This document shows positions 33,028 to 48,841 of a stretch of DNA of 64,000 nt, in pieces (the first letter of the stretch is position 1; every line of letters begins with the position of its first letter). The position numbers were made by a program, and so were the translations under genes. A model generated the notes under the pieces. That model made no database searches, had not been told where the DNA came from, and worked only from the letters and a program-made list of their open reading frames with translations. Source of the DNA: Cerasicoccus sp. TK19100 (GTDB lineage Bacteria > Verrucomicrobiota > Verrucomicrobiia > Opitutales > Cerasicoccaceae); the NCBI RefSeq assembly GCF_027257155.1, contig NZ_JAPWDU010000007.1:1-64000 (forward strand). The letters are read 5' to 3'.

Positions 33028-33213
33028 TTTTTTAACCACGAAGGACACGAAGCGCACGAAGGCTGAGAGACAAGTGATTTGAAACTCACGCCAAGACCCA
33101 AAGGCCCAAAGTTTCCATCATAAGAAATTAACTTGGGGTCTTTGGGTCTTGGCGTGAAATAAAATACGACTCACTGGCCTTCGTGCGCTTCGTGTCCTTC
33201 ATGGTTTAAAAAA
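33028..33213. repeat. Nested inverted-repeat element without an ORF
   Basis: Outer arms 33028-33063 and 33177-33213 (core GAAGGACACGAAGCGCACGA) pair with one mismatch and one indel. Inner arms 33086-33113 and 33130-33157 (core TCACGCCAAGACCCAAAG) pair at 26 of 28. No open frame inside. It fills most of the 310-bp gap between the ligase and the GT4 gene. The arm words are of the kind I associate with Verrucomicrobial and planctomycete interspersed repeats that also border GxxExxY-type genes, so it may be a cassette that lost its gene. Confidence 0.7.
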
Positions 33214-34576: not shown

Positions 34577-34584
34577 GACCAGTG
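34561..34584 (+). terminator. Hairpin spanning the GT4 stop codon
   Basis: CACTGGTCTC, AACT loop, GAGACCAGTG: a perfect 10-bp stem that includes the GT4 stop codon and touches the GTG start of the four-helix-bundle gene. No T-run follows, so it may act on mRNA stability or coupling rather than termination. Confidence 0.5.
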
Positions 34585-34992
34585 AAGATTAAAGTGAGCA
34601 AATTAAAAATTAAAGTGGACTACGAGATTGAAGAACCGGCAGTTGCTTTTGAAAAGCTCCAGGTATGGAAGCGTGCCTGCCGGTTAACGGTATCTCTATA
34701 CAAGGCGTTGGAGAATTGCCCGGATCGATCGCTAAAGGATCAGATGACCAGGGCTTCGGTCTCAATCGCGTCTAATATTGCGGAGGGATACGAGCGAAAT
34801 AGTCCGAAAGACTTTGTTCGGTTTTTACGCATTGCGAAGGGCTCCACGGGTGAACTGCGCACTCAGCTTTACCTCGCTCAATCACTTGGCTTCGCCTCCA
34901 AAACCGATGTAGATGCCTTAGTCAGCGAATGCCGGGAAATTTCAGCCATGCTCCAAGGCTTCATCAAGTCGATTCAGTCCCGGCAAGAATGA
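34582..34992 (+). CDS. Four-helix-bundle protein (23S rRNA intervening-sequence protein family)
   Basis: A 136-residue protein of the IVP/S23 family: FEKLQVWKRACRLTVSLYKA, then SLKDQMTRASVSIASNIAEGYERNS and FVRFLRIAKGSTGELRTQLYLA, ending in CREISAMLQGFIKSI. The family is known from ORFs in 23S rRNA intervening sequences and forms pentameric bundles; its function is not settled. GTG starts at 34582, 34594 and 34615 are all in frame; the last two lie in or at the edge of the left arm. The gene is enclosed by inverted repeats (34586-34618 and 35004-35037), as in rRNA insertions, but here it sits between two sugar-metabolism genes. Confidence 0.88.
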   Translation: MKIKVSKLKIKVDYEIEEPAVAFEKLQVWKRACRLTVSLYKALENCPDRSLKDQMTRASVSIASNIAEGYERNSPKDFVRFLRIAKGSTGELRTQLYLAQSLGFASKTDVDALVSECREISAMLQGFIKSIQSRQE

Positions 34993-35037
34993 GCAGCTCA
35001 CCGCCATCTTTAATTTTTAATTTGTTCACTTTAATCT
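34586..35037 (+). mobile_element. Inverted-repeat cassette carrying the four-helix-bundle gene
   Basis: Left arm 34586-34618 begins AGATTAAAGTGA and right arm 35004-35037 is its reverse complement apart from one substitution and a small indel near the inner end (identical blocks of 12 and 17 bases). The arms bracket one ORF and end 1 base before the ATG of the downstream phosphorylase, so the cassette replaces that gene's normal leader. I see no target-site duplication. Confidence 0.72.
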
Positions 35038-43024: not shown

Positions 43025-43464
43025 GAGCGCCAATGGCGCGGCCGCATAGTAGCCTAGGGCTAGCGGACATTCATTTTGTATCTTGATTGCTGCAAATACT
43101 GCCCCAACGGGGCTACGCAAGATGTCGTTTTGCGCAATCCCGTTGGGATAGGCAATTTACGTATTCGTATTCCCAGGGTAGGCGTTCAGCCGCTCTGCGG
43201 CCTCAAGCCAACCCTGGGCTATTGATGCGTAGCCCCGTTGGGGCAAATTTACTGAAAGTTGAATGTCCGTTGGCCCTAGGGTAAGCCCTAGGTTTTGCGG
43301 ATTTATATAGCGTTGGAGCGCCGAAGGCGCGGCCGCAAAAACGTTGATACGGCCGCGCCTTCAGCGCTCTAATATTGGTGGGTGATCTCCTTTCCTAGGG
43401 CTGCGCTGCGTCGCGTTGCTCCTTGCTTACCCTAGGCTACTATGCGGCCGCGCCGTTGGCGCTC
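43025..43464. repeat. 440-bp nested inverted-repeat element
   Basis: Outermost arms 43025-43059 and 43430-43464 (35 bases, one mismatch, containing GCGGCCGCATAGTAGCC). Further nested pairs: GGACATTCA/TGAATGTCC around 43064 and 43259, TGCCCCAACGGGGCTACGCA at 43100-43119 against its exact complement at 43226-43245, CCCAGGGT/ACCCTGGG around 43171 and 43211, and a separate GC hairpin at about 43317-43371. No ORF. It fills most of the 659-bp gap before the HAD gene. The right end matches the left window edge. Confidence 0.7.
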
Positions 43465-43586: not shown

Positions 43587-44198
43587 TTATCCGCCGACGG
43601 AATACTTGTCCGGGTCTACATAGACCCAGCGCATGCCGGCGGCTTCGGCGGCTTGGAGGCCCAGCTTGCTGTCTTCGTAAACCACGCAATACTGCGGCTC
43701 GACGCCGAGCAATTCCGCGGCCTTGAGGAAGCCATCTGGCGCGGGTTTGCTGTGGACCACGTCCGCTTTCGTCACGACGACTTCGAACAGGTCGTCGATG
43801 CCGCAATACTTGAGCGTGCCGTGGACGTGGCGCGGGTCGCCGCCGGAGGCGACGGCGATGTGCAGGCCCTCGGCTTTGAACTGGCGCGCCAGTTCGGCCA
43901 CCGGGATGATGGGCTCCACGGCGTGGTGCTCTTTGACGATGTAGTCGTGGTTGTCTTCGACGACCTGGTTGACGTCCAGTGTTTCCTGATACTTCTCGTT
44001 GATGAGCTCGACGGAGTGGTGCATGCCGACGCCCGCCATTGAGTAAAACAGATCCCAGGTGAACTCGAACTTTGCCCCGTTCTTCTCGTAGGCGTATTTC
44101 CACGCGCGGTAGTGCAGCGGCATGGTGTCCGCCAGCGTGCCGTCGCAGTCGAAAATGACTGCGCGCGTCTCACCCTCGGGAAGTTTCAGGTCGCTCAT
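43587..44198 (-). CDS. HAD phosphatase, beta-phosphoglucomutase-like subfamily
   Basis: A 203-residue HAD protein: VIFDCDGTLADTMPLHYRAW (motif I and cap start), VASGGDPRHVHGTLKY (motif II), SKPAPDGFLKAAELLG (motif III lysine) and CVVYEDSKLGLQAAEAAGM (motif IV). Subfamily IA with a helical cap, as in beta-PGM and many sugar-phosphate phosphatases. ATG overlaps the topB stop by 4 bp (ATGA), so it is co-translated with topoisomerase, an unexpected partner. Confidence 0.87.
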   Translation of the reverse strand: MSDLKLPEGETRAVIFDCDGTLADTMPLHYRAWKYAYEKNGAKFEFTWDLFYSMAGVGMHHSVELINEKYQETLDVNQVVEDNHDYIVKEHHAVEPIIPVAELARQFKAEGLHIAVASGGDPRHVHGTLKYCGIDDLFEVVVTKADVVHSKPAPDGFLKAAELLGVEPQYCVVYEDSKLGLQAAEAAGMRWVYVDPDKYSVGG

Positions 44199-46729
44199 TT
44201 ATCTTTATTAGTGGCTTTCTTGGCCGCCTTTTTAGCCGCTTTCTTGCGCGGCGGACGCGGCGGAAATTCAAAGCCGATCTTGCCGTCTTCCTTGAGCAGC
44301 AGGTGCGCGTCAAACAAGCGGCCAGTGCGGTTGGATTTGAAGCCCTTGATCAGTCCGGTCTTTTTCTCGGCGAGAAGCTTCTTCACTTCCTCGGCGGGCA
44401 GGGCCTTGCTGAGCATGTTACGGCTCAGGCGGAAGGCGGGCTTGCCGTCGGGGTCGCGGCCTTCGGAAACGTAGGCATTCGGCGTTTCGCGGACGGGGGT
44501 GCCGTCCACCGGTGAATTGCCGACAACCGGGTATTGGCTGAGGTCGACGCTCTCATCGAGTGCTTCCTCGCCGTTGTTACCGAAGTCCAGCTCGACGCGT
44601 TTGGTGCCGTTTTCTTTATCGATCAACTTGAGGATCGCGGAAAAGGTTTTACCATTGCGCGAGGTAAAGCCGTCCAGCGGGCCGATCTCCTTCTTGGTGA
44701 TCAGCTCCTCGACTTCCTTGAGGTCGAGCTTGCGGTTGCCGATGACTTTGTTGACCTGCAAGAGCGGGTATTCGCGGCCGCGGATTTCCACCTTGTCCTG
44801 CGAGAACCACGCGCGGTGATCTTCGAGCAGAGGCTGGTTGTTGGTGGGGGAAACGAGGTTGGTCTTCTCGGGCGGAGGCGGGCTGTTGAGCTTGTTGACC
44901 ATGTCCTGCGTCGCGTCGACAATGCCCTTCATGAAGTCATCACGCGAGAGCTCGCCTTCTTCGACGAGGCGGAGCTTGTGCTCCCATTCGCCGGTCATGG
45001 CGGGGGAGGTCAGCTGCTCGATGTCGAACTGCTTCAGGAATTGCATCAGGCTCTCGGCCTTTTGCGTGGGGAGGAGTTCGCGGCCCTGGCGCTCGATGTA
45101 GCGCTCGTGGGCAAGGTGGTCGATGGTGGCCGCGCGGGTGGCCGGTGTGCCGAGGCCCTTTTCCTTCATTGCTTCGGCCAGCTCTTCGTCGTCGAGAAGC
45201 TTGCCGGCACCTTCCATGGCGGAGAGCAGCGTGGCTTCCGAGTAGCGGGGCGGCGGCTTGGTCTGGTCTTCTTCGAGGCGGGCGTCCTTGCGGTCGGCAA
45301 TGGCGGTCTTCGGCGCATCGCTGCGGGCAAAGTCGGGGTCGGTCAGTGGCGTCAGCGTGTCTTCGCCCGCGCCGCCCTTGCCGTAAACGTCCATCCAGCC
45401 GCCGACGGCGAGCACCTTACCCTCGGTCTTGAAGGAATGGCCCGCGATCACGCTCGTGCGCGTGGTGACGTCGAATTCCGCTGGCGGGAAGAAAATCGCG
45501 ATGGTGCGGCGGGCGATCATGTCGAAGATTTTCGCTTCGAGGTCGCCCAGCTTCTTCGGTTTGGCGTCGGTCGGGATGATCGCAAAGTGATCGCTGACCT
45601 GCTTGTTGTTAAAGATGCGCTTGTTGCCGGTGTGGACCCAGTTGTTGTTGAGCACTTTTTCGGCGTGAATCGCGTAGGGCTCGTCGAGATTGGCGAGGGT
45701 GCTCTTCACCGTGGGGCCGTAGTCTTCCGGCAGCGCCCGCGAATCGGTTCGCGGGTAGGTGATCATCTTGTGCTTTTCGTAGAGGGCCTGCGCGATGTTG
45801 AGCGTGTGGCCGGCGGACAGGCCGAAGCGGCTGTTGGCCTCACGCTGGAGGCTGGTCAAATCGTATAGGCGTGGGCTGGACTGCTTAGTGCGTTTCTTTT
45901 CCTCGGTGACGCTGGCTTCGCCGGCGGCCAGGACGGCCTGGACAACGGCCTCGGCGTCTTCCTTGTTCCAGAGGCGGTCGGCGCGGTCGTGCTCGTCGTC
46001 GCTCTTTTTAAAGTCGGGCTTCTGGTAGACGCCTTCGTATTCGCCGGCGGCGACGCCGAAGTTGGCGAAAATGCGCCAGTAGTCGCGCGGCTTGAAATTG
46101 CGGATTTCCATCTCGCGCTGGTAAACGAGCGAGAGGGTCGGCGTCTGCACGCGGCCTACGGTGGCGGCGCGGCCTCCCCGGCGACCAAAGACGACGGTCG
46201 CGCCACGGGTGCCGTTGATGCCGATCAGCCAGTCTGCCTCGGAGCGCGAGCGGGCGGCGTCCTGGAGCGGCTGCATTTCCTTGTCTTCGCGCAGGTTGGA
46301 GAAGGCTGAGCGAATGGCGTCCGGGGTCATGGATGACATCCACAGGCGCTTGACGGGCTTCTTGTTTTTGGCGAGTTCGAGGATGTAGGTAAAGATGAGC
46401 TCACCCTCTCGCCCGGCGTCACAGGCGTTGATCACGGCGCCGACGTCTTCGCGGGCAATGAGCTTTTTCAGCTCCTGAAACTTCTGCTTGGTCTTGTCGA
46501 TTGGCTTCAGCTTGAACTTGTCCGGGACGATGGGCAGCGTCTTGATGGTCCAGCGCTTGAGGTCCTTGCTGATGTCCTCGGGCATGTAGAGCTCCACCAG
46601 GTGGCCAACCGCCGAGCTGATTACGTATTCGTCGTTTTCGTAAAAATCGCCCTTCTTGGGGATCTTCCCCAGCACGCGGGCCAGGTCTCCCGCTACGGAA
46701 GGTTTCTCGGCAATGATCAAAGTTTTCAT
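44195..46729 (-). CDS. topB: DNA topoisomerase III
   Basis: An 844-residue type IA topoisomerase: Toprim domain (LIIAEKPSVAGDLARVLG, NACDAGREGELIFTY), VGRVQTPTL, active-site Tyr in KMITYPRTDSRALPED, GLGTPATRAATI and a C-terminal region with two topoisomerase C-terminal repeats (DGFTSRNGKTFSA.., GLIKGFKSNRTGRLFDA) plus a lysine-rich tail (RKKAAKKAAKKA). It relaxes or decatenates single strands. ATG at 46729. The gene downstream overlaps by 4 bp; the upstream neighbour is a GxxExxY cassette. Confidence 0.95.
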   Translation of the reverse strand: MKTLIIAEKPSVAGDLARVLGKIPKKGDFYENDEYVISSAVGHLVELYMPEDISKDLKRWTIKTLPIVPDKFKLKPIDKTKQKFQELKKLIAREDVGAVINACDAGREGELIFTYILELAKNKKPVKRLWMSSMTPDAIRSAFSNLREDKEMQPLQDAARSRSEADWLIGINGTRGATVVFGRRGGRAATVGRVQTPTLSLVYQREMEIRNFKPRDYWRIFANFGVAAGEYEGVYQKPDFKKSDDEHDRADRLWNKEDAEAVVQAVLAAGEASVTEEKKRTKQSSPRLYDLTSLQREANSRFGLSAGHTLNIAQALYEKHKMITYPRTDSRALPEDYGPTVKSTLANLDEPYAIHAEKVLNNNWVHTGNKRIFNNKQVSDHFAIIPTDAKPKKLGDLEAKIFDMIARRTIAIFFPPAEFDVTTRTSVIAGHSFKTEGKVLAVGGWMDVYGKGGAGEDTLTPLTDPDFARSDAPKTAIADRKDARLEEDQTKPPPRYSEATLLSAMEGAGKLLDDEELAEAMKEKGLGTPATRAATIDHLAHERYIERQGRELLPTQKAESLMQFLKQFDIEQLTSPAMTGEWEHKLRLVEEGELSRDDFMKGIVDATQDMVNKLNSPPPPEKTNLVSPTNNQPLLEDHRAWFSQDKVEIRGREYPLLQVNKVIGNRKLDLKEVEELITKKEIGPLDGFTSRNGKTFSAILKLIDKENGTKRVELDFGNNGEEALDESVDLSQYPVVGNSPVDGTPVRETPNAYVSEGRDPDGKPAFRLSRNMLSKALPAEEVKKLLAEKKTGLIKGFKSNRTGRLFDAHLLLKEDGKIGFEFPPRPPRKKAAKKAAKKATNKDK

Positions 46730-46755: not shown

Positions 46756-47225
46756 GTTTAAACAGGAAGATCGGGAAGAACGGGAAGCTTAATTATCCGC
46801 CCCGGGCAAGGTGAGTCGGCGTATGCCGTTTTTCAGGTATGGTTCGTAAAAGTTAAGAATGATCCCAATCGGCGCATCCAAAAGGCGCATATAACTAAGA
46901 GTTTGGGCGATGTGCTCAGGTCGAATCTTTTCAACGACTTTCAGTTCCAGCAATAAGCATTCCTCGACGAATACGTCCGCCCGGATAAATTCGTCAAAGA
47001 CTTCACCCCGATATTCAATCGGCACTTTTAACTCTCGTTGAATTTTGATTTTTTCAAGCAGCAGGTCCCGGGAAAGCGCTTTTTGATAGATAGGTTCCAG
47101 AAGACCGGGACCGAAATGTTTATGCACCCGAAAGGCGGAATCAATAACCGGCTTGGTTAGCTTATCTGCCTTGGCGTAATTTGGATGCATTAACTTCCCG
47201 TTCTTCCCGATCTTCCTGTTTGAAC
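46756..47225 (-). mobile_element. Inverted-repeat cassette carrying a GxxExxY gene
   Basis: Left arm 46756-46793 and right arm 47189-47225 are inverted copies sharing an identical 28-base core (begins AAACAGGAAGATCGGGAAGA). They differ by one substitution and one extra base. The stop codon of the enclosed ORF lies in the left arm and its ATG touches the right arm, so the element is almost exactly gene plus arms. It is inserted between topB and an aminotransferase gene. No target-site duplication is apparent. Confidence 0.75.
46789..47190 (-). CDS. GxxExxY protein, PD-(D/E)XK-like nuclease fold
   Basis: A 133-residue protein with the GxxExxY motif at G29-E32-Y35 (GLLEPIY), then IRADVFVEECLLLELKVVEKI, whose D72, E82 and K84 fit a PD-(D/E)XK active site, and HIAQTLSYM with the helix glutamine often seen in that superfamily. 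GxxExxY proteins are common in Verrucomicrobiota, planctomycetes and Bacteroidota, and no biochemical role is established as far as I know. The ATG at 47190 abuts the right inverted arm; the stop sits inside the left arm. It is likely a mobile single-gene cassette. Confidence 0.88.
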   Translation of the reverse strand: MHPNYAKADKLTKPVIDSAFRVHKHFGPGLLEPIYQKALSRDLLLEKIKIQRELKVPIEYRGEVFDEFIRADVFVEECLLLELKVVEKIRPEHIAQTLSYMRLLDAPIGIILNFYEPYLKNGIRRLTLPGADN

Positions 47226-47241: not shown

Positions 47242-48324
47242 TTACTTGGGCAGGAACTGCGGGACGAGGTCGTCGAGCTGGCCGATGAGGGTGTTCATCG
47301 TTTCGTCGGTTTCGTCGCCCATGTTGGAGATGCGGAAGGTCTTGCCCTTTACCTTGCCGTAGCCGCCGTCGATGTCGCAGCTATACTTGGCCTTGAGCTC
47401 CTTGCGGAGGCCTTCCAGGTCGATGCCGACATCGTTCTTGAAGCAGCACAGGGTCTTGGAGCCGAACTCGGCCGGTGGCAGCAGCTCGATGCCGTGCTTG
47501 GCACCCCACGCGCGGACGAGGTTGTTCAGGCGCTCGTGGCGCTCGTAGCGGGCTTCCAGGCCTTCGGCGAAGATGTCTTCCAGCTTGCTTTGCAGCGCGT
47601 AAATCAGCGGGATGACCGGCGTGGACGGCGTCATGCCCTTCTCGTAGTTCTTCTGGAACTCGATGAAGTCAAAGTAGTAGCCGCGGCCTTCGACGGTCTC
47701 GGCGCGCTTCATGGCGCGGTCGGAAACGGACAGCAGCGAGAGGCCGGGGGGCATGGCCAGGGCCTTCTGTGAGCCGGTGAGGAGCACGTCGATGCCGAGC
47801 GCGTCCTTGTCGATCTTGACCGCGCTGAACGAGCTGACGGTGTCGGTGATCGAGATGACGTCCGGGAATTCGCGGAGCACTTCCATGATGCCCTCAATCG
47901 GGTTCATCGTGCCGGTGGAAGTCTCGTTGTGGATAAAGGTGATCGCGTCGTATTTGCCGGTGGAGAGCTCGCGACGGATGTCTTCCGGATCGATCGGGGT
48001 GCCCCACTCATACTGGAGCTTGCCGTTGGGCAGGCTGCAGCGCTCGGCGACGTCGTTCCACTTGTCCGAAAACGCGCCGGACATGCAGTTGAGCACACCC
48101 TTCTTGGTGACGTTGCGGATCGCGCCTTCCATCACGCCCCAGGCTGAGGAGGTGCTGATGAAAACGGGGTCCTGCGTATACATCAGCTGCTGCAGCTGAG
48201 GCTGGACGGATTGAAAGAGGTTGACGAAGTCCTTGCTGCGGTGGCCCATTACCCATTGGGTCATGGCGTTATAGGTCTTTTCCGAAACAGCGATCGGACC
48301 AGGGATGAAGAGTTTATAGCTCAC
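47242..48324 (-). CDS. Class V aminotransferase (alanine-glyoxylate/serine-pyruvate type)
   Basis: A 360-residue PLP enzyme: LFIPGPIAVSEKTYNAMTQW (substrate loop), SSAWGVMEGAIRNV, FIHNETSTGTMNPI, ITDTVSSFSAV and LLTGSQKALAMPPGLS, where K is the PLP lysine. Fits the serine-glyoxylate/alanine-glyoxylate transaminase group; phosphoserine aminotransferase-like roles cannot be excluded. GTG start at 48324. It precedes the GxxExxY cassette by about 17 bp. Confidence 0.9.
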   Translation of the reverse strand: MSYKLFIPGPIAVSEKTYNAMTQWVMGHRSKDFVNLFQSVQPQLQQLMYTQDPVFISTSSAWGVMEGAIRNVTKKGVLNCMSGAFSDKWNDVAERCSLPNGKLQYEWGTPIDPEDIRRELSTGKYDAITFIHNETSTGTMNPIEGIMEVLREFPDVISITDTVSSFSAVKIDKDALGIDVLLTGSQKALAMPPGLSLLSVSDRAMKRAETVEGRGYYFDFIEFQKNYEKGMTPSTPVIPLIYALQSKLEDIFAEGLEARYERHERLNNLVRAWGAKHGIELLPPAEFGSKTLCCFKNDVGIDLEGLRKELKAKYSCDIDGGYGKVKGKTFRISNMGDETDETMNTLIGQLDDLVPQFLPK

Positions 48325-48556: not shown

Positions 48557-48752
48557 ACGCTGTGTTTTGCAAAAGCCTAATGCTTCTTTTCCGAAAAGCC
48601 TACTGCTGTGTTTTCAAAAAGCCCTATGCTGTGTTTTGGAAAAGCCACCACTGTTGTTTCTCTAACAACACTACTGTTGTTGAGGCAACATAGCCTGCTG
48701 TGTCGTACCAACAACAGTAGTGGCTTTTTTGAATCTCTCCATAGGGCTTTTT
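48557..48752. repeat. Structured intergenic element of nested inverted and tandem repeats
   Basis: AAAAAGCCCTATG (48616-48628) pairs perfectly with CATAGGGCTTTTT (48740-48752). Inside, 48640-48658 pairs with 48710-48730 (AGCCACCACTGTTGTT against its complement, one mismatch, ending in TTTTTT). Smaller stems such as GTTGTT/AACAAC lie within. From 48557 on, units of about 23 bases (TGCTGTGTTTT..AAAAGCC) repeat. The whole lies in the 517-bp divergent gap between the aminotransferase and the hydrolase. Ends look like a rho-independent terminator read on the plus strand. Confidence 0.65.
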
Positions 48753-48841
48753 AGAAAAGTCCATCGGGGCACCCCGTGGGCAATGCGGGAACGATTACTT
48801 TGGCGTTGTCGGGTTTGGGCAGTGGGCTTACTCCTGACTGC

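Follow-up and report, generated by a model that had tools for sequence, protein, structure and literature searches.

Among described systems, the closest functional analogue of the locus considered here is the REPIN/RAYT family rather than a homing endonuclease. In the portion of PMC2817692 available to us, RAYT genes are described as having inverted flanking REP sequences, repeats that co-evolve with the protein, a correlation between the presence of gene and repeats, and faster sequence change than neighbouring genes, together with mosaics in which gene ends are caught between repeats. The accessible text of PMC3116915 presents the doublet, or REPIN, as the mobile unit. A second point of comparison is the IVS of the Coxiella 23S rRNA, which, according to the part of PMC4990558 at hand, possesses a 28-bp terminal stem, an S23p ORF that is decaying and probably not expressed, and three tandem heptamers ahead of the start codon. 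According to the excerpted text of PMC4679880, Beggiatoaceae and cyanobacteria likewise have heptamer repeats whose origin is unclear.

The DNA analysed here is a 64,000-nt stretch (the window) of Cerasicoccus sp. TK19100, whose genome is represented by 5.07 Mb in 13 contigs. Within it, a gene for a GxxExxY protein lies between two arms that form an inverted repeat of 43 nt with 86% complementarity (Table 1). Specifically, the arms share an identical core of 28 nt, AAACAGGAAGATCGGGAAGAACGGGAAG, by direct reading of the sequence, and each arm is composed, in gene orientation, of three units of about 9 nt. The GxxExxY ORF has a start codon that overlaps the right arm at its edge and a TAA stop codon that lies within the left arm. 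The identical core in opposite orientation and the placement of start and stop at or inside the arms, both claimed for this DNA in the original prediction, are confirmed. We consider it probable that this cassette is the gene-bearing form of a mobile inverted-repeat family resembling REPIN/RAYT, with a Cas4/RecB-like nuclease in place of the transposase.

Table 1. Features of the cassette, its host neighbours and two related elements in the window
Feature	Coordinates	Strand	Basis or remark
5′ arm (gene orientation)	47183..47225	-	triad AAACAGGAAG-ATCGGGAAG-AACGGGAAG; inner edge at start codon; recurs in genome
GxxExxY protein, 133 aa, predicted PD-(D/E)XK fold (Cas4/RecB-like)	46789..47190	-	profiles, alignment, structure model
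3′ arm, inverted copy of the 5′ arm, holds the stop codon	46756..46798	-	repeat comparison
Upstream host gene, aminotransferase	47242..48324	-	name from reading the translation
Downstream host gene, type IA topoisomerase	44195..46729	-	name from reading the translation
Gene-less element with ACCACGAAG triads as its outer inverted doublet	33028..33212		different doublet (33086-33157) nested in its loop
Four-helix-bundle (TIGR02436) cassette, similar design	34582..35037	+	arms 34586-34615 / 35008-35037

With respect to the protein, matches were obtained to both PF13366 (PDDEXK_3, E 1.5e-33) and TIGR04256 (GxxExxY, E 9.3e-34), and the score of 116 bits, set against cut-offs of 35 and 22, places it in the GxxExxY / PDDEXK_3 family. 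The residues D72, E82 and K84, proposed earlier to be spaced as in a PD-(D/E)XK nuclease, are invariant across 56 aligned sequences, as are G27, G29, E32, Y35, G109 and N113. The predicted structure (pLDDT 96.7, pTM 0.89) is closest to SSO0001 (4ic1; Z 9.2, rmsd 3.6, 100 aligned), which we take to be a Cas4, followed by the restriction-endonuclease-like 3ijm (Z 8.1); lower in the ranking come the Holliday-junction resolvase Hjc (Z 6.9) and, in Foldseek, lambda exonuclease. Models without a clear match typically reach a best Z of 7-8, and such scores imply no kinship of their own accord. Placement in the superfamily is supported by the Pfam match and the conserved residues besides the structure match, and on the basis of the modelled fold and its D, E-x-K residues the protein can be assigned to the PD-(D/E)XK superfamily, in agreement with the original prediction; a fold by itself does not demonstrate activity, and DNA cleavage is a putative function. 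Its D and E-x-K motif is presumably that of Cas4/RecB-like nucleases, a likeness that extends to the fold (4ic1) and to near-invariant Q96 and Y100 positions in the GxxExxY alignment. Unlike those nucleases, the GxxExxY protein is a stand-alone polypeptide of 133 residues that has one cysteine and is encoded between repeats of its own. A sequence search of the PDB with this protein returned nothing convincing (best E 0.14), and neither the four-helix-bundle protein nor any of the four GxxExxY proteins of this genome was assigned to a family by PADLOC. Comparison of the window gene with its copy in genome G388, which is very probably Cerasicoccus maritimus because the genes L036 and L147 are identical, gave a dN/dS of 0.06 at a dS close to saturation, and the protein is therefore maintained by purifying selection.

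The arms are not confined to the cassette. A genome-wide search, as had been suggested with the original prediction, located 28 further places that match the window arm (E <= 0.001; match list reduced by hand), some of which form gene-less inverted pairs separated by some 10 to 150 nt. Four GxxExxY genes are present in this genome, three of which (L031, L032 and L034) have clear inverted arms of a different sequence in each case; for the fourth (L033), a repeat search finds no arm pair and local alignment gives a weak one (score 15.0). Dispersed copies also exist of the L032 and L034 arms, 13 and 14 in number, and the arms of all three tested cassettes recur as solo copies and gene-less doublets that fall into 23, 9 and 11 sites. 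Moreover, there are 8 places in the genome where different arm types occur together within 250 nt, compared with a mean of 0.19 and a maximum of 2 over 2000 draws of a random-placement null that assumed 3000 intergenic slots. A stray arm copy of the L032 cassette type is also present in the window at 186-213.

The same design is encountered across phyla. Our general sample comprised 80 named loci from many phyla, which are the best 80 of at least 559 relatives and were chosen by likeness to the query, and the flank test covered 76 of them (4 were dropped for short flanks), with other ORFs of the same loci as controls. Inverted flanks scoring at least 14 were found for 66 of the 76 GxxExxY genes and for 4 of 265 control ORFs, with 10 GxxExxY genes below this score. 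Among the four scoring controls, the top one is itself another GxxExxY gene, two have triad-like arms and one does not, as judged by eye. Under a stricter null, in which flanks were swapped among GxxExxY loci and which thus retains the common arm design, 45 of 78 loci exceeded the 99th percentile (2 of the 80 were left out for short flanks). The arms are also internally periodic, with identities of 0.41 and 0.39 at lags 8 and 9 compared with 0.29 after shuffling (78 arms), and many of them read by eye as ACC(A/G)C..AG-.C(A/G)C..AG-.C(A/G)C..AG or AACAG..G-.AAC..AG-.AAC..AG. Given the 28 other genomic matches and the inverted flanks of relatives relative to controls, the window arms are not a product of chance. 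A chance origin of the arms is rejected by the flank test, by the dispersed copies and the placement test on mixed types, and by the reversed-pattern control described below. Separately, a gene that reads as a restriction specificity subunit was observed between inverted triad arms at L046 1709-2794.

If the cassette were a fixed part of its surroundings, the same gene would be expected between the same neighbours in every relative, with arms that do not recur; neither is the case. In the site comparisons that follow, arms were read by eye unless searched, and host-gene names were taken from translations, except for PF05635 and PhyH. The aminotransferase-topoisomerase site was compared in 10 genomes of the family, that of the window included. 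The cassette is present in G000, G388, G228 and G389, gene-less doublets with other arm sequences occupy the site in G387, G336 and G163, and neither form is present in G128 and G391, which have terminator-like hairpins, or in G390, which has another repeat. At 17 more distant aminotransferase-topoisomerase loci (L156-L172), triad arms were not seen by eye. At the pheS site, a cassette follows pheS in G000, a shortened GxxExxY gene lies between arms in G336, gene-less doublets are found in G228, G163 and G391, and a single arm is found in G389. Triad arms in G128 surround a 66-aa ORF without a Pfam match (L231 1218-1493). The site is held in G387 by a four-helix-bundle gene (PF05635, E 1.1e-38) and in G390 by a PhyH-family gene behind tandem AAGGAAT-like repeats (L232 799-1464), and a repeat search at 16 nt or more found arms around the former and inverted arms around the latter in neither case.

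In C. maritimus (L041 3205-4470), pheS is followed in turn by a triad doublet, an SGNH-hydrolase-like gene, a GxxExxY cassette and pheT. The SGNH-hydrolase-like gene is thus caught between two elements of one type. The doublet at this site, which is the same in G388, retains the first codons of a GxxExxY gene, and gene-less doublets can therefore form by internal deletion. The C. maritimus doublet is such a product, but the proposal that all doublets are was rejected, because a site can hold a doublet in one species and be without it in another. A third site, that of the L034 cassette beside another aminotransferase gene, holds a cassette in all four members of the genus and doublets in G163 and G228, and a fourth, at nrdR, holds a cassette in G000 and G388 and a doublet of the AACAGGAAG type in G391. 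The comparison with relatives was extended to seven dispersed sites that carry the window arm type and no gene, two of which were not clean. The element is absent at C6 (G336 and G388), at the second site of C9 (G387), at C1 (G388, G387 and G336) and at C3 (G336); at C3, G388 and G387 carry an arm type of another kind instead, and the C8 element is common to G000, G388 and G387. Empty and filled pairs of sites therefore exist, with flanks too diverged to define element ends or a target-site duplication. Taken together, the recurrence of the arms and the gene-less, empty or differently filled state of the site in relatives support the self-contained unit of the original prediction. Movement of the DNA is strongly indicated.

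The window cassette has also diverged from its same-site relative to a greater extent than its surroundings. Relative to G388, its dS is 1.55, compared with 0.42 for the aminotransferase and 0.43 for the first 325 codons of the topoisomerase, and its pS is 0.655 (95% 0.53-0.80) compared with 0.32 and 0.33 for these flanks, an order that none of 4000 codon bootstraps reversed. In the same comparison, the 5′ arm is identical at 30 of 31 nt and the 3′ arm at 31 of 31. The pheS-site cassette has a dS of 0.98, as opposed to 0.49 for pheS and 0.69 for pheT, an excess that is clear against pheS (10 of 4000 bootstraps contrary) and weak against pheT (271 of 4000). At the third site the cassette has a dS of 0.38 relative to G388 and its neighbour one of 0.41, and high dS is therefore not a property of the GxxExxY gene. 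Because it is found in all four genus members with a dS equal to that of its neighbour, this third cassette is old and vertically kept, which counts against the mobile reading, as does the weak excess at the pheS site. The simplest reading of these values would be same-site replacement or independent arrival, clear at one of the three sites and possible at another.

Replacement at a site would also be produced by homing, in which the nuclease would cut an element-less or otherwise-filled allele at a preferred intergenic site and repair would copy the cassette there. The repeated occupation of the same sites across the family agrees with this proposal, as does the divergence of the window cassette beyond its flanks. 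Nonetheless, the presence of one arm type at 23 different sites in a single genome points to ectopic spread, and a shared cleavage site is not readable from the diverged flanks. We therefore regard homing as distinctly improbable for this locus.

Arms and protein vary in concert. Over 96 loci, arm similarity is correlated with protein similarity at r 0.48, and at r 0.40 when the comparison is restricted to the 2941 between-phylum pairs; neither value was reached in 2000 permutations. These 96 loci are drawn from 117, of which 21 were dropped for an arm score below 14 or short flanks, and include one cassette counted twice, since L036 and L147 are the same gene. Plain co-inheritance of the linked arms and gene contributes to this co-variation, and short non-coding arms would be expected to be saturated at such protein distances unless constrained. 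Gene and repeats also occur together. Of the 228 genomes of the phylum that encode GxxExxY, 101 contain one strict arm-class pattern, as do 7 of the 159 that do not encode it (p 2e-20, a value inflated because the genomes are related), and a reversed control pattern is present in none of the 387. In family f22 alone, the pattern is found in 5 of 8 genomes with the gene and in 0 of 49 without. The 127 of 228 genomes that possess the gene and lack this one strict pattern count against the mobile reading, as do the 7 that show the pattern without encoding the gene, the 10 GxxExxY genes below the flank score and the weak arm pair of L033.

These data also bear on a host-domesticated origin, in which the arms would be terminators or mRNA-stability hairpins and the nuclease an unrelated small gene linked to them by chance. 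Gene-less doublets do adjoin stop codons, and the hairpins that stand in for doublets in G128 and G391 look by eye like ordinary terminators. However, the linkage seen in the flank test, the co-variation across phyla and the co-occurrence of gene and arms are unexpected of chance linkage, and we consider such an origin very improbable indeed.

In terms of transcription, 64 of the 80 loci have two called neighbours (ORFs called mechanically), which are co-directional at 43 loci, convergent at 13 and divergent at 8. Between co-directional genes, the GxxExxY gene points with its neighbours 39 times and against them 4 times (p 3e-8). The gene is probably often expressed through read-through, because 39 of the 64 loci are co-directional runs with the gene pointing along them. 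The first in-frame start lies a median of 8 nt from the arm end and is preceded by a Shine-Dalgarno-like 4-mer in 54 of 90 cases. The cassette RNA is predicted to fold by pairing the arms (z -6.3), which bears out, as a prediction, the transcript hairpin put forward earlier for this locus. By analogy with IVS elements, such a hairpin may make the insertion tolerable.

The co-directional orientation, the strong predicted hairpin and the position of the start codon would all be accommodated by an IVS-like RNA element, in which insertion into transcripts would be rendered harmless by cutting of the arm hairpin by RNase III or by the nuclease, spread would occur by rare recombination, and the nuclease would act on RNA or be a passenger. 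The window cassette also resembles the Coxiella IVS in being a unit of about 430 nt with an ORF inside inverted repeats of about 28 nt, an ORF start close to the inner arm edge and short units repeated in tandem within or next to the arm, as far as the accessible text of PMC4990558 describes that element, and its terminal inverted repeats would likewise form a stem around the ORF. However, the window site lies between two protein genes rather than in an rRNA helix, the cassette units are 8-9 nt in length compared with 7 for the IVS, and the protein is a different one that is under purifying selection, in contrast to the decaying Coxiella ORF. Moreover, the modelled GxxExxY fold is nearest to DNA nucleases, and the loci between convergent or divergent genes are poorly explained by insertion into transcripts. 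On balance an IVS-like RNA element seems unlikely. A search of Rfam gave no match at the gathering threshold within the window.

A related design is shared by four-helix-bundle genes. Among 30 TIGR02436 loci of the order, 18 have inverted flanks scoring at least 14, and the best repeat lag of these 18 is 7 in 12 cases and 8 in 6, with an identity of 0.57 at lag 7 compared with 0.31 after shuffling. In other loci, 7 of 167 ORFs reach the same score, all of them at triad-type arms by eye. Four-helix-bundle and GxxExxY genes both occur after pheS in sister species. The original prediction had united the window cassette with the four-helix-bundle cassette at 34.6 kb in a shared class; this holds for the design, as judged from the 18 of 30 flanks and the tandem lags. 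The arms of the four-helix-bundle relatives were observed to consist of tandem 7-8-nt units that differ between elements.

Returning to REPIN/RAYT, the elements described here share with that family a gene flanked by two inverted repeats that are also dispersed as doublets and solo copies, co-variation of repeat and protein, and a gene whose presence tracks the repeats. The gene also outpaces its neighbours, clearly at one of three sites and weakly at a second, and mosaics with gene ends trapped between repeats are seen. Nonetheless, the cassette is not a member of REPIN/RAYT, because both the protein and the repeat structure differ. Specifically, the sole gene inside the arms encodes a PF13366 protein of predicted PD-(D/E)XK fold rather than an HUH/Y1 (IS200/IS605-like) protein, the arms lack the stable internal fold of REP sequences (median MFE -2.1 for 75 single arms, 4 of which are at -8 or below), and they have no consistent GTAG head, GTAG or CTAC being found anywhere in 7 of 96 arm pairs. 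MITEs and insertion sequences likewise show empty sites and insertion into one another, and occur with or without a gene between terminal inverted repeats; the elements described here differ from them in having no known transposase and no recognised target-site duplication.

In the REPIN/RAYT-like model that we favour, each element would be built of two inverted copies of an arm of about 30 nt, itself made of three 8-9-nt units. Gene-bearing copies would hold the GxxExxY nuclease, and gene-less doublets and solo arms would be non-autonomous or decayed copies. We propose that the nuclease would recognise arms of the type that flanks its own gene and would cut or process the element, or a cruciform or hairpin form of it, by way of a DNA or RNA intermediate. 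Host repair would then place a copy in a short intergenic gap immediately after a stop codon, with landing sometimes within or beside other such elements. That the nuclease binds and cuts its own arms and drives movement is an inferred part of this model. GxxExxY elements look like a widespread, undescribed type of very small mobile DNA, accompanied by a nuclease of its own. We extend this more tentatively, and with somewhat less than even confidence, to the proposal that they are minimal elements across phyla for which a nuclease of about 130 residues and a three-unit repeat suffice, that each nuclease uses the three tandem units to read an arm code of its own, moves gene-less doublets in trans and favours existing elements as places to land, and that four-helix-bundle (S23/IVS) genes with tandem 7-8-nt arms form a parallel class competing for the same intergenic sites.

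Within the open-licence PMC literature, preprints excluded, the accessible text of articles that name GxxExxY contained nothing on repeats, and the accessible part of PMC8934634 mentions it only as the neighbour of a reverse transcriptase. Searches of that literature with literal arm sequences, or with PF13366, TIGR04256 and similar names, retrieved unrelated papers only, and the text returned by broader searches contained no description of GxxExxY with repeats. GxxExxY is annotated in very many genomes without a role, including 228 of the 387 genomes of one phylum examined here. If correct, a role as the nuclease of a repeat family would account for this gene as well as for many triad repeats between genes, a large class of CACRGAGACACRGAG-like sequences, and would add to the RAYT system a PD-(D/E)XK counterpart with a testable repeat-recognition code. 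GxxExxY elements also provide a comparable partner for IVS and four-helix-bundle elements on the question of mobility.

Several further observations were made in passing. Matches to the strict arm pattern are most numerous in G314 (200), G325 (129) and G197 (103), which are candidates for recently active families. A pair of 35-nt inverted repeats in the window (GAGCGCCAATGGCGCGGCC...), at 43025-43464 with a span of about 440 nt, is not of the triad kind, and the window further contains, at 48611-48758 near the aminotransferase gene, an imperfect 48-nt inverted repeat within a 150-nt stretch.
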